Source of the DNA: Candidatus Latescibacterota bacterium
Lineage (GTDB): Bacteria > JAAXHH01 > JACQVL01
DNA: 22,116 nt
Reading direction: 5' to 3'
Assembly: GCA_016209865.1 (NCBI GenBank)
Contig: JACQVL010000129.1
Location: 1-22,116 of the forward strand
Numbering within the stretch: position 1 is the stretch's first letter; each line of letters opens with the position of its first letter. Under the pieces are notes generated by a model. That model searched no databases. It was not told the origin of the DNA and saw only the letters and a program-made list of their open reading frames with translations. The position numbers and the translations under genes were made by a program. Of the stretch, positions 8,470 to 19,528 are shown one piece after another.

Positions 8470-8488
8470 CCATGAAGGGTAGATGCTT

Positions 8489-10006
8489 ATGCGAATCGCC
8501 ATCGGCGGGATGATGCACGAATCGAACACGTTCAGCCGGACGCCCACCGACCGGGCGGCGTTCGAGTCAGGCAGCCTGACCACCGGCGACCGCATCCTCC
8601 CGGTGTGGGGACCGGCGCACCATGAGATGGGCGGGTTCATCGAGGGCGCGCAGCGGTTCGGCTACGACCTCTACCCTACCCTGATGGCGGTCGCCACCCC
8701 GTCGGGCCGGGTGACGGATGACGCGCTCGGCTGGCTGACCGACGAGTTGATCGACCGGCTCTCCGCCGGCCCCTCGCTCGACGGCCTGCTGCTCGCCCTT
8801 CACGGGGCGATGGTGGCCGAGAGTTATCCCGACGGCGACGGTGAAGTCCTGCGGCGACTCCGCGCCGCGCTCGGTTCCGATTTCCCGATCGTCACGACGC
8901 TGGATTTCCACACGAACGTCTCCGAACAGATGGTCGGGGAGTCAACCGCGCTCGTCATCTATCAAACATGTCCCCACGTCGATCAGCGGGAGTGCGGCCT
9001 GCGGGCGGCGGAGTTGATCACCCGCATCGTCACGGGAGAGGTGCGTCCGACCCAGGCGTTGGCCAAGCCGCCTCTGCTGTTCAACATCCTGTTCCAGAAC
9101 ACCAGCCGGGAACCGCTCCGCCCGATCCTCGACGCGGCCCGCGAGCGCGAACGCCGCCCGAAGGTGCTCAGGGCGAACATCGCCGCCGGCTACCAGTACG
9201 CCGACGTCCACGAGATCGGCCCATCCGTCGTCGTCGTGACGGACAACGACCCCGACCTCGCCCGTTCAGAGGCGGCCTCGCTCTCAGACAGGCTCTGGGC
9301 CTGCCGGGACCGGCTCGTCCTCGACCTCCCCGATGCGGCGACAGCGGTGGAATGCGCCCGGCAGTCGGATGCCCATCCTGTCGTCCTCGTCGAGATGGGG
9401 GACAACATCGGCGGCGGGTCGGCGGGCGACAGCACGGTCATCCTCTCCGACCTGCTCCGCCAGGACGCCGAAGGCTGGGTGGCCGTCCTGTACGATCCGG
9501 AGGCGGTTCACGCCTGCGTTCAGGCAGGGATCAGCCGGACGGTCGACCTGATGGTGGGCGGAAAGACAGACGATCTCCACGGCCTCCCCGTCCGGATCGC
9601 CGGTCGCGTCCGTTCGTTGCACGACGGCCGGTACGAGGAGCCGGAGGTCCGGCACGGCGGAGCGCGCTACCACGACCAGGGCCTGACCGCCGTCGTGGAG
9701 GCGACTCTCCCTGGCCTTTCCCGAACCCCGAATCCCGAACCCCGAACCCCGAGTTTTTTAATTCTCACCTCGAAGCGTGAGCCGCCGTTCAGCCTCCGGC
9801 AATTGACCAGCCTGGGCATCGACCCGGCGCGGCAGCGGGTCCTCGTCGTGAAGGCCGCGATCGCCTACCGGGCGGCGTACGAGCCGATCGCCGGGCGCAT
9901 CATCGAGGTGGATACTCCGGGACTGACCGCCGTCAACCCGGCGCGGTTTACGTTCCGGCACATCCGGCGTCCGTTATGGCCGATCGATGAAATCAGTGAC
10001 GAGTGA
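8489..10006 (+). CDS. M81 family metallopeptidase-like protein (MlrC-type)
   Basis: 505 residues from the ATG at 8489. An ATG 6 nt earlier is open but too close (3 nt) to the AAGGG at 8475-8479, and families usually begin MRIAIGGxxHE. The metal ligands known for microcystinase C are all here at identical spacing: E11 (MMHESNTFS), H105 (LHGAM), D139 and H141 (LDFH), H163 (CPHVDQRE). MlrC hydrolyses linear microcystin fragments, but most relatives have unknown peptide or amide substrates, so microcystin is not implied. Residues 411-422 (SRTPNPEPRTPS) are a repeat-encoded insertion just before the conserved LTSKRxPPFSLxQLxSLGIDP. The last residues and stop are supplied by a TGACGAG word. It sits with sugar and amino-acid catabolic genes. 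Confidence 0.9.
   Translation: MRIAIGGMMHESNTFSRTPTDRAAFESGSLTTGDRILPVWGPAHHEMGGFIEGAQRFGYDLYPTLMAVATPSGRVTDDALGWLTDELIDRLSAGPSLDGLLLALHGAMVAESYPDGDGEVLRRLRAALGSDFPIVTTLDFHTNVSEQMVGESTALVIYQTCPHVDQRECGLRAAELITRIVTGEVRPTQALAKPPLLFNILFQNTSREPLRPILDAARERERRPKVLRANIAAGYQYADVHEIGPSVVVVTDNDPDLARSEAASLSDRLWACRDRLVLDLPDAATAVECARQSDAHPVVLVEMGDNIGGGSAGDSTVILSDLLRQDAEGWVAVLYDPEAVHACVQAGISRTVDLMVGGKTDDLHGLPVRIAGRVRSLHDGRYEEPEVRHGGARYHDQGLTAVVEATLPGLSRTPNPEPRTPSFLILTSKREPPFSLRQLTSLGIDPARQRVLVVKAAIAYRAAYEPIAGRIIEVDTPGLTAVNPARFTFRHIRRPLWPIDEISDE
9720..9753. repeat. In-frame C-rich/G4-forming word inside the M81 gene
   Basis: The word CCCGAA/CCCCGAA is repeated five times. On the minus strand it reads as four runs of three or four G with loops of 3-4 nt, a canonical G-quadruplex pattern. 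It encodes residues 411-422 of the M81 protein. The same word, in the other orientation, lies between genes at 18209-18233. Confidence 0.8.
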
Positions 10007-11131: not shown

Positions 11132-11881
11132 ATGAAAGGCCTGCGCAGAGACCCGGAACGCAGAGAAATCCGCCTGCTCCGACGGCGCGCGTCGCTCGAC
11201 GGGGCGCGCGTGCTCGAGATCGGGTGCGGCTTCGGCCGGCTCACCCGGCGGTTCGCCAGCAGCACGCAGTCCGTCGTGAGTCTCGATTCGGCTTCGGACA
11301 CGATCGCCCAGGCGTGCCGGCTGACCCCGGCACGGCTGCGGAAAAACGTCCGGTTTGAGATTGGTTCCGCCGAGACGTTGAGTTTTCGGGATCACTGCTT
11401 TGACGTGGCGATTCTCTCCTGGTCCCTCTGATGAGTCGCCCCAAAGGGCATGGGGCATGCCCTGGAAGAGATTCATCGAGTCCTGACTCCGCAGGGGATC
11501 GTTGTCGATATCCATCCGAATCGACCGGCGGACACCCGCAATCGTCTTGTCGCACGGCCTCAAGTCTATGGCATGACAGGTGGCCGGATGATCCTCGTCG
11601 GAGCGCTTCAGGATCGGACCTCGCATTACCGCGCTGCCGACCGGACGGTACAGCAGGCGTTGAGGCAGGGGCTGTTCATCCTCCTGAGTAGTGAGGCATT
11701 TCCCCATCGGTATTACTTTCGCACCCTGGCGGTCCTCGATCAGTACCTGGCCACCCAGTGGACCGCCGCCTCCATCGGCGCGTCGCTGCGACGGCGGCTC
11801 CAGGCGTTCCTGGGCGCACACCCACAGGCGCAGATCATGGTCGAAACGTCTGTTCGGATGAATGTGATGAGCCAACCATAG
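11132..11881 (+). CDS. SAM-dependent methyltransferase with two in-frame TGAs (candidate Sec-Sec selenoprotein)
   Basis: Read through the tandem TGA at 11429-11434, this is a 249-residue class I methyltransferase. The N-terminal 99 residues carry SAM motif I (LEIGCGFG, 28-35), an acidic residue after beta 2 (D52), the GSAETLSF loop and FDVAILSWSL. The two TGAs fall at positions 100-101, and the same frame continues VAPKGMGHALEEIHRVLTPQG, the normal motif after beta 4, to a TAG stop. No frameshift is needed. Positions 100-101 match where UbiE-type enzymes carry RN or HH beside the active site, where a metal- or metalloid-binding Cys-Cys/Sec-Sec could act. I expected Cys here by recall of relatives; TGC to TGA is a single change. 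A G-rich tract precedes the ATG. The substrate is unknown. The alternative is a pseudogene with two nonsense codons. Confidence 0.72.
11426..11480 (+). promoter_or_regulatory. Candidate bacterial SECIS element in the methyltransferase mRNA
   Basis: Folded by eye. The upper hairpin is 7 bp, GGGCATG/CATGCCC, with a GGG loop (11446-11462), plus A11445-T11463. It begins 11 nt after the second TGA and is 17 nt long, the spacing and size known for the minimal E. coli fdhF SECIS. The loop lies 18 and 21 nt after the two TGAs, within the range of the bSECIS consensus, and opens with G. Both TGAs lie in a lower stem: GATGA (11430-11434) pairs with TCATC (11473-11477) and CTC (11426-11428) with GAG (11478-11480), leaving U11429 bulged. 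CC/GG at 11441-11442 and 11464-11465 may add two pairs. There is no energy calculation behind this. Confidence 0.55.
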
Positions 11882-11901
11882 GAACCGTTGGAGGAATTGT
11901 C

Positions 11902-11919
11902 ATTCCCGCGGAAGCGAAT
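11902..11919. repeat. Degenerate dRS3-like repeat before the hydrolase start
   Basis: ATTCCCGCGGAAGCGAAT lacks two bases of the right arm. It lies between a GGAGG sequence (11890-11894) and the hydrolase ATG (11929), separating them by 34 nt. Confidence 0.65.
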
Positions 11920-11928
11920 CCATCGCTT

Positions 11929-12762
11929 ATGCCGTTCTTCAGCCATGATGGTCTTCATTTCCACTACTACGACACGGGCGAAGGCCTCCCGTTCTTCTTC
12001 CAGCACGGACTCGGCGGCGACGTGAAGCAGCCGGTGGGACTGTTTACCCCGCCCCCTGGCTTCCGGCTGCTCGCGTTCGACTGTCGCGGGCATGGGGAGA
12101 CGCGCCCGCTCGGCGACCCGCACAAAATCAGGATCACCGCCTTTGCCGACGACTGGCTCGCCCTGATGGATCATCTTGCCATCGCGCGCGCCGTCATCGG
12201 CGGGATTTCGATGGGGGCGGCGGTCGCGCTGAATTTCACGTTGCGATTCCCGGATCGCGCGCTCGGCCTGATCCTCTCGCGTCCGGCCTGGCTGGATGGG
12301 CCCAATCGGAAGAATGTGTCGATCTACCACTCCATCGCACGACTGATCCGGGAGTCCGGTGCGAACGAGGGCCTTGAGCGCTTCAAGCAATCCGAAGCCT
12401 ATCGTGAGGTCTTACACCAGTCTCCCGACGCGGCGCAATCCCTGGTCGGCCAGTTCGAGCAGACCCGCGCCGAGGAAACCGTCGTGAAGTTAGAGCGCAT
12501 TCCGGCCGATGCCCCCAATCATGACCGGACGGAATGGCGCCGTATCACCGTCCCCACGCTCGTCCTCGCCAACCGGCAGGACCCTATCCATCCCTTCGAG
12601 TACGGCGAGGTCCTGGCGCGCGGGATTCCGGGCGCCGAGTTCGAGGAGATCACACCAAAGTCGGTGAGCAAGGAAGACCACGCGAGGGATGTGCAGAGGT
12701 GTATTGAAGAATTTTTACAACGGCACTCTGACACACATGGATTCCCGCTTGCGCGGGAATGA
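11929..12762 (+). CDS. Alpha/beta hydrolase
   Basis: 277 residues from the ATG at 11929. A longer frame from 11758 overlaps the methyltransferase and has no conserved content. The fold markers are HG at 26-27 (oxyanion), the nucleophile elbow GGISMG (S94), acid D218 (NRQDPIHP) and H251 (KEDH), the serine-hydrolase triad. A helical cap is expected at about 120-200. It is cytosolic, with no signal peptide. The family covers esterases, lactonases (3-oxoadipate enol-lactonase-like), C-C hydrolases and peptidases; the substrate is undetermined. The C-terminal GFPLARE and the TGA stop come from a dRS3-like repeat (12741-12760), so the native tail has probably been replaced or extended. The ribosome binding site is displaced by a repeat (see 11902-11919). 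Confidence 0.87.
   Translation: MPFFSHDGLHFHYYDTGEGLPFFFQHGLGGDVKQPVGLFTPPPGFRLLAFDCRGHGETRPLGDPHKIRITAFADDWLALMDHLAIARAVIGGISMGAAVALNFTLRFPDRALGLILSRPAWLDGPNRKNVSIYHSIARLIRESGANEGLERFKQSEAYREVLHQSPDAAQSLVGQFEQTRAEETVVKLERIPADAPNHDRTEWRRITVPTLVLANRQDPIHPFEYGEVLARGIPGAEFEEITPKSVSKEDHARDVQRCIEEFLQRHSDTHGFPLARE
12741..12760. repeat. dRS3-like palindrome forming the hydrolase C-terminus
   Basis: ATTCCCGCTTGCGCGGGAAT, a perfect 8-bp stem with a TTGC loop. It is read in frame as the last residues of the hydrolase and supplies the TG... of its TGA stop (12760-12762). It may also act as a 3' end hairpin. Confidence 0.85.
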
Positions 12763-18286: not shown

Positions 18287-19528
18287 ATGCACGATCACAC
18301 CGTCACTCTCCCCGTCGCCGCGTGGGGGCAGACCACCACGCTCGACCTTTCATTCCCCGAAGACTGGACAGTCACCTGTTGCCGGATGGCTGGACACGAC
18401 GCGCCCGGCCTGAGCGACGACCAGATCCGCGCCGCGCTCGCCAGCCCGCTCAGCACCCCGCGTCTGAGCGAGATGGCCCGTGGGAAGAAGCGCGTCGCCA
18501 TCCTGTTCGATGACCTGACCCGGCCGACGCCCGCTTATCGAGTCGTCCCGTTCGTCCTGGAGGAACTCCGTCGTGGCGGGATCAACGACGATCAGGTCCG
18601 GTTCATCGCGGCGATCGGGACGCACGCGCCGATGCCACGTTCTGAGCTCGTGAAGAAATTGGGAGAGGACATCGTCGAGCGGTTCCCGGTCTACAACCAT
18701 AACATCTACGACAACGTCGCGGAAGTCGGTGTCACAAGCTACGGGACTCCTGTCTTCATCAACCGGGAGGCGGCCTCATGCGACCTGAAAGTCGGAATTG
18801 GCGGCATTCTTCCATACGGCCAGAAACACGTGTATAACGGAGGAGGAAAAATCATCCTACCGGGGATCTCCGGGATAGAAACGATCGTTGATTACCACGT
18901 GAAGGTGTATGAGCGGATAAAAGATTTCTCGTTCGACCCCCGGGTAGTGGAAGGAATCCCGCCGTACCGAGTGAACCTGGAAGAGGCGGCCCGGCTCGCC
19001 GAGCTGGACATGAAGGTCGACCTGGTGCAGAACAACCGGAAGGAAGTGGTGGGGTTGTTCGCCGGGGATTTCATCCAGACTCACCGGACGGGCTCTCAAT
19101 GGGCAAGATGCATCTACACCACGCCAGTCGCCCCTCCATCCGATGTTGTCATCCTCAACTCGTATCCGAAGGAAGATCAGCCGTTGGTGGGGCTCTGGGT
19201 GGCGATCCAGTCGGTCAAGCCGGGCGGCGATATCGTGATTTTTTCGCACAGCACGAACGGGATCGCGCACGTCCACTACCTGTTCGGCCGCTTTGGCGAC
19301 GGCTTCGGCGGGCCGGGCTGGTCGCCGGGCCGGCATTTCCAGGCCGCCGAGGCGCGTCGCGTCATCTTCTGCTCCCCATACCTGTCGAAGGCGGACATGG
19401 ACAACTACAGTCCGGAGCGAGTGACGTTCTGCAAGTCGTGGAATGAGGTAAGGACGCTTTTAGAGCGGGAACGGAATGGGCAGACATCGGTGGCGATTTA
19501 CCCGTACGGGGCGCTCCAGACGGTGTAA
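18287..19528 (+). CDS. LarA-like nickel-dependent racemase family protein (DUF2088)
   Basis: 413 residues, cytosolic. LarA racemises lactate, and relatives racemise or epimerise other 2-hydroxy acids, using a nickel-pincer nucleotide linked to a lysine. Matching residues here: DDLTRPTP (D76, R79), H113 in GTHAPM, K188 in GGGKIILPGISG, and H204, the last exactly 16 residues after K188 as in L. plantarum LarA (K184, H200). The residue 10 before the lysine, a catalytic histidine in LarA, is G178 here; the nearest His is H181, so the reaction may differ. LarB, LarC and LarE, which make the cofactor, are not in the window. AAGGAG (18276-18281) lies 5 nt before the ATG. It sits between the permease and the ThuA-like gene. 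Confidence 0.87.
   Translation: MHDHTVTLPVAAWGQTTTLDLSFPEDWTVTCCRMAGHDAPGLSDDQIRAALASPLSTPRLSEMARGKKRVAILFDDLTRPTPAYRVVPFVLEELRRGGINDDQVRFIAAIGTHAPMPRSELVKKLGEDIVERFPVYNHNIYDNVAEVGVTSYGTPVFINREAASCDLKVGIGGILPYGQKHVYNGGGKIILPGISGIETIVDYHVKVYERIKDFSFDPRVVEGIPPYRVNLEEAARLAELDMKVDLVQNNRKEVVGLFAGDFIQTHRTGSQWARCIYTTPVAPPSDVVILNSYPKEDQPLVGLWVAIQSVKPGGDIVIFSHSTNGIAHVHYLFGRFGDGFGGPGWSPGRHFQAAEARRVIFCSPYLSKADMDNYSPERVTFCKSWNEVRTLLERERNGQTSVAIYPYGALQTV

Follow-up and report, generated by a model that had tools for sequence, protein, structure and literature searches.

The gene at positions 11132-11881 of the forward strand of the window (the whole stretch of DNA that was analysed, 22,116 nucleotides) is almost certainly not broken by its two consecutive in-frame TGA codons, which are predicted to insert two adjacent selenocysteine (Sec) residues. 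It is strongly supported, by comparison of sequences, that both UGA codons are decoded as Sec by way of SelB and tRNA-Sec with the help of a single SECIS hairpin. The best explanation of the data as a whole, which is held here with high confidence, is that the product is a functional methyltransferase of class I, dependent on SAM, that carries a Sec-Sec pair in a loop of its acceptor pocket and depends on one SECIS; no experiment shows selenium in the product, and methyl transfer is inferred.

The frame starts with ATG, ends with TAG and comprises 249 codons, including TGA TGA at 11429-11434 (codons 100 and 101), which are its sole internal stops; re-reading it agrees with the preliminary description, according to which the frame is interrupted only by these two adjacent stops and continues for 148 codons behind them. 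The predicted read-through product is MKGLRRDPERRE...FDVAILSWSL-UU-VAPKGMGHALEEIHRVL...VMSQP, and its start, length and frame are conserved in relatives. If TGA is read as stop, the frame breaks into ORFs of 99 and 143 aa, but in the read-through protein the Pfam domain Methyltransf_25 crosses the TGA-TGA site (residues 27-122, E 1.1e-17), and hence both halves belong to one methyltransferase. An alpha/beta hydrolase ORF (11758-12762) is listed as starting at a GTG within the methyltransferase gene; since the Pfam domain of the hydrolase sets in only at about residue 78, translation probably begins further downstream, in the vicinity of the ATG at 11929.

When the read-through protein was used to search 16 genomes of the window's phylum, including the window's own, relatives were found in 13 of the 15 others, at 36-43% identity and extending to two further families of the same order, and each has exactly two in-frame TGA, all at the same two codons. 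A profile built from the 14 phylum members was then run on genomes of Chloroflexota and Acidobacteriota, yielding 47 places in 42 of the 400 Chloroflexota genomes sampled and 5 places in 396 Acidobacteriota genomes (phyla named after the records that served as centres); every one of these places carries one or two in-frame TGA. Across the 65 sequences read from these three phyla, with members ranging down to about 27% identity, the site is Sec-Sec (UU) in 50, Sec-Cys (UC) in 13 and Cys-Sec (CU) in 2; the first codon (11429-11431, Sec100) is UGA in 63 members and Cys in 2, and the second (11432-11434, Sec101) is UGA in 52 and Cys in 13. One Chloroflexota sequence with a single TGA (L135) could not be read with the motif pattern and was left out of the 65. 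Homologous positions 100-101, which the preliminary description had singled out for inspection, are thus occupied by Sec or Cys alone, and the criterion for a bacterial selenoprotein, a UGA that is conserved in homologues and swapped with Cys alone, is met. Some Chloroflexota genomes contain two copies of the family (G089, G112, G232, G394 and G412; L122, L130, L131, L149, L151 and L152), which lie within 6 kb of each other in G089 (L122), while G412 combines a UU copy with a CU copy.

When 39 members were placed in a maximum-likelihood tree, UC forms came out at several separate positions among the UU forms, suggesting that Sec and Cys were probably exchanged more than once. An all-Cys (CC) member was not found among the 65 genes read, nor was any other residue at the site, and since Cys homologues are said to exist for nearly all selenoproteins (PMC13188914), this absence counts against the selenoprotein interpretation. 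However, sampling was confined to four phyla, the window's own among them, and in the other three scoring was limited to the highest-ranked candidates of each genome, so that all-Cys members may still form a branch elsewhere. Among relatives that lack TGA, the nearest (L105 and L106, from Myxococcota) have His-His at the site and are set apart by a long, fully supported branch; Myxococcota gave three weak hits without TGA, two of them having HH. The earlier statement that related enzymes have HH here is right for the nearest non-members (L105, L106 and P0002). Searches of plasmid and phage collections returned generic methyltransferases only, most of them matching the SAM domain at 30-37% (with HH in the one that was read), and a scan of genome contigs with the window protein alone likewise returned only generic relatives.

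The assignment to the class I SAM-dependent methyltransferases rests on Pfam score, conserved SAM motif and fold, and is met on all three. The protein scores 64.9 bits against PF13649 (gathering score 27) and 60.7 bits against PF08241 (21.2). Across 26 members, SAM motif I (GCG.GR) is invariant together with D52, D7, E12, S98, both Sec/Cys positions, A110, G122, P129 and F190. AlphaFold2, supplied with the 26 members, predicts a confident class I fold (pLDDT 92, pTM 0.88), in which Sec100-Sec101, modelled as Cys, directly follow strand beta4 (residues 90-96) in a short helical turn that precedes the next helix. In class I methyltransferases, the loop behind beta4 faces the methyl acceptor. Structure comparison ranks small-molecule O-, N- and S-methyltransferases highest, along with uncharacterised proteins; YcgJ (1xxl), TleD (5gm1), RebM (3bus) and TmtA (5egp) share the fold over the whole chain with Z of about 20-23, but only 12-22% identity, and have no Sec, TleD having Cys-His (SLCHM) at the site of the Sec pair in the profile alignment. 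We regard the product as a methyltransferase that uses SAM and holds a pair of selenolates in its acceptor pocket, both methyl transfer and selenium content being inferred. It remains possible, though unlikely, that the selenoprotein is no longer a methyltransferase and has turned the methyltransferase scaffold to redox chemistry or metal binding, in line with the view that selenoproteins mostly have redox functions (PMC13188914) and with the lack of a known substrate; against this, the invariance of GCG.GR and D52 makes SAM binding look conserved.

The putative SECIS, A-GGGCATG-GGG-CATGCCC-T (11445-11463), begins with its core 11 bases past the second TGA; this core (11446-11462) holds the loop at 11453-11455 and is extended by an outer A-T pair (11445/11463). 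Over 39 aligned members (37 distinct), 95.6% of the helix cells are paired, versus 23-57% for slid versions of the helix, and six of the eight pairs show double compensatory change. The covariation score of 0.195 compares with a mean of 0.105 for shuffled alignments and was reached by none of 500 shuffles, a comparison that is inflated by the relatedness of the sequences, as the tool itself warns. Of 65 members, 63 have all six inner pairs intact, and every one has G as its first loop base, followed by G or U. The stem is rebuilt as AGAACGTC-GGT-GACGTTCT in L104, and is further altered yet still complementary in L141 and L143. Synonymous sites are frozen as well: of the degenerate columns whose residue does not vary across the 14 phylum members, only those of G106, G108, H109 and A110, all in the hairpin, and that of E12 are confined to one codon, whereas the remaining columns use two to six codons each. 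Published bacterial SECIS elements have a loop of 3-9 nt with G in its first two positions, a stem of 4-16 bp, a distance of 16-37 nt from the UGA and an MFE of at most -7.5 kcal/mol (PMC13188914), and the hairpin meets this model for both UGA codons, with a loop of 3 nt (GGG), a stem of 7-8 bp, spacings of 18 and 21 nt and an MFE of -13.5 for a 40-nt stretch. Rfam gave no match in the window.

Sharing of one hairpin by both codons also leaves room for a different outcome, in which Sec is inserted at one UGA only, the other being read as Cys or Trp or mostly causing termination, so that the double-Sec protein would be a minor product. Decoding two UGA codons should be costly, and this presumed cost, together with the UC and CU members, which show that one Sec can suffice, speaks for such an outcome. 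It is nevertheless improbable, as 50 of 65 members retain the double UGA although a single base change would give a Cys codon. UC members retain the first UGA only and CU members the second only, with the hairpin unchanged in position, and hence it is inferred that the hairpin evidently serves either spacing.

The machinery for Sec insertion, which the preliminary description had proposed to look for, was found in the same genome (G000), a draft of 3.75 Mb that is 83% complete. It contains a tRNA-Sec with the anticodon UCA (68 bits against a gathering score of 47; ARAGORN concurs), a SelB match (337 bits, cut-off 242) that ends about 80 bases before the tRNA-Sec, SelA (351 bits, cut-off 268) and SelD (390 bits; L076, G000:C19:21578-22510). 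The selD gene has an in-frame TGA within SHGAGUACKL, the usual Sec site of SelD, and SelD is itself a selenoprotein. The membership criterion, the presence of selA, selB, selC and selD together, is met, and from tRNA-Sec, SelA, SelB and the Sec-containing SelD it follows that the organism very probably makes and uses selenocysteine. In the genomes tested, SelB does not discriminate between bearers (34 of 37) and non-bearers (32 of 39) of the methyltransferase selenoprotein, because Sec use is common among them; the three bearers without a full SelB hit are draft genomes. Two members of the phylum, G007 and G014, do not have the methyltransferase selenoprotein gene. G014 has full SelB and SelD, so that Sec decoding there is independent of this gene, and in G007 (87% complete) no SelB match exceeds the cut-off.

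If TGA were reassigned or suppressed in general, with Trp, Gly, Cys or another residue inserted and no Sec involved, the frame would equally be open, but this is very improbable: TGA terminates 8 of the 15 window ORFs checked and is thus a normal terminator for other window genes, relatives that replace one of the two UGA codons always have Cys instead, and neither the tRNA-Sec, SelA, SelB and Sec-containing SelD nor the covarying SECIS-type hairpin downstream would fit. The earlier judgements that TGA is a real stop in neighbouring genes and that general recoding is unlikely are thereby borne out. A pseudogene or assembly error, that is, an ordinary methyltransferase gene with two nonsense codons, might have been entertained for a lone case in an incomplete draft genome but has practically nothing left to commend it, since 65 independent relatives have UGA/UGA, UGA/Cys or Cys/UGA at exactly this pair of codons, in a frame that is otherwise conserved; it is refuted by this recurrence, which, across dozens of independent genomes, also excludes a read error hiding TGC or TGG, and the preliminary view that random decay is hard to credit is upheld. 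The UU selenoprotein first proposed from the window alone is supported by the UU/UC/CU pattern of the homologues, the sel genes and the covarying hairpin taken together; each of the three refuting conditions set out in the preliminary description was checked, and none was fulfilled.

In the proposed mechanism, SelB and tRNA-Sec would decode the two consecutive UGA codons with the one hairpin behind them, and the Sec-Sec pair would come to lie after beta4 in the loop lining the methyl-acceptor pocket, its position being taken from the predicted model and its role from family knowledge. The two selenolates could close to a diselenide, or to a Se-S bridge in UC and CU members. The most likely way of action, by inference, is that the selenolate pair binds or activates a soft acceptor beside the SAM methyl group; this acceptor could be a thiol, a selenol or a metalloid such as As(III), which is a guess, and the Sec pair may also gate activity by its redox state. 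A more far-reaching proposition, for which we consider the chances about even, is that the family has never lost selenium, always keeping at least one Sec and mostly Sec-Sec, with one SECIS serving two UGA decoding events and a diselenide or bis-selenolate forming the acceptor site.

Clustering of neighbouring ORFs at 20 loci and the window revealed no conserved gene partner that would hint at the substrate, and mainly reflects lineage-wide synteny in Chloroflexota, involving genes for uracil phosphoribosyltransferase, triosephosphate isomerase and a zinc alcohol dehydrogenase (named from sequence by eye). The alcohol dehydrogenase adjoining the window gene is only distant kin of those in Chloroflexota (25-35% over parts), which suggests that its adjacency is probably due to chance. 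Other neighbours in the window include an M81/MlrC-type metallopeptidase (8483-10006) and a protein whose N-terminal domain is that of lactate racemase (18287-19528). In one acidobacterial genome (G516:C31; L125, L100), the surroundings include an upstream rhodanese-like ORF and, a short distance away, an ArsM-like methyltransferase (SNCVLNL motif), neither of which was seen at the other loci looked at.

The occurrence of UU, UC and CU forms round one fixed SECIS makes this gene family a natural test bed for the action of SelB on two successive UGA codons and for the spacing tolerance of the SECIS. That a widespread methyltransferase keeps selenium wherever it was found points to a methylation reaction that has not been described. 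Annotation software that treats every TGA as a stop would split such genes in two.

In our assessment, these genes form a selenoprotein family that is new and shows an unusual variant, the vicinal Sec-Sec pair, with the proviso that unpublished database annotations may exist. In NCBIfam (June 2026), no specific model is met, and neither adjacent Sec-Sec nor a methyltransferase with such a motif is found in a 2026 inventory of 119 prokaryotic selenoprotein families (PMC13188914). Text searches of the accessible papers for tandem or adjacent Sec retrieved nothing relevant, although the source for MduS (Haft and Tolstoy 2025) was not covered. MduS (NF045649) also combines a methyltransferase domain with two Sec (PMC13188914) and has weak similarity in the SAM domain, but the window protein reaches only 39 bits against a cut-off of 380, the model has 338 positions versus 249 aa, and the listed motif is CxxU rather than adjacent Sec-Sec, so that identity with MduS is rejected. 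Sec-containing ArsM (NF008823) and its fusions with AhpD/DUF2284 (NF041537, NF041536) are likewise class I SAM methyltransferases with Sec, whereas their listed motif is UxxG and the window protein has no fused domain; the scores against NF008823, NF041536 and NF041537 are 26.4, 36.2 and 40.3 bits, short of the cut-offs of 263, 575 and 510. The best NCBIfam hit of the window protein (P0001) is the corrinoid protein-associated methyltransferase CpaM (NF043040), which hits all 26 members scanned, but at 58.9 bits P0001 does not meet the cut-off of 180 and is not assigned to CpaM. As to the hairpin, the SECIS of Escherichia coli fdhF has the same 11 nt between UGA and stem (spacing taken from the genome record and compared with the second UGA of the window gene), a 5' arm of 7 nt and a loop starting with G. 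In contrast to fdhF, which has one UGA and a bulged stem, the window hairpin is unbulged, has 7-8 bp and would serve two successive UGA codons.
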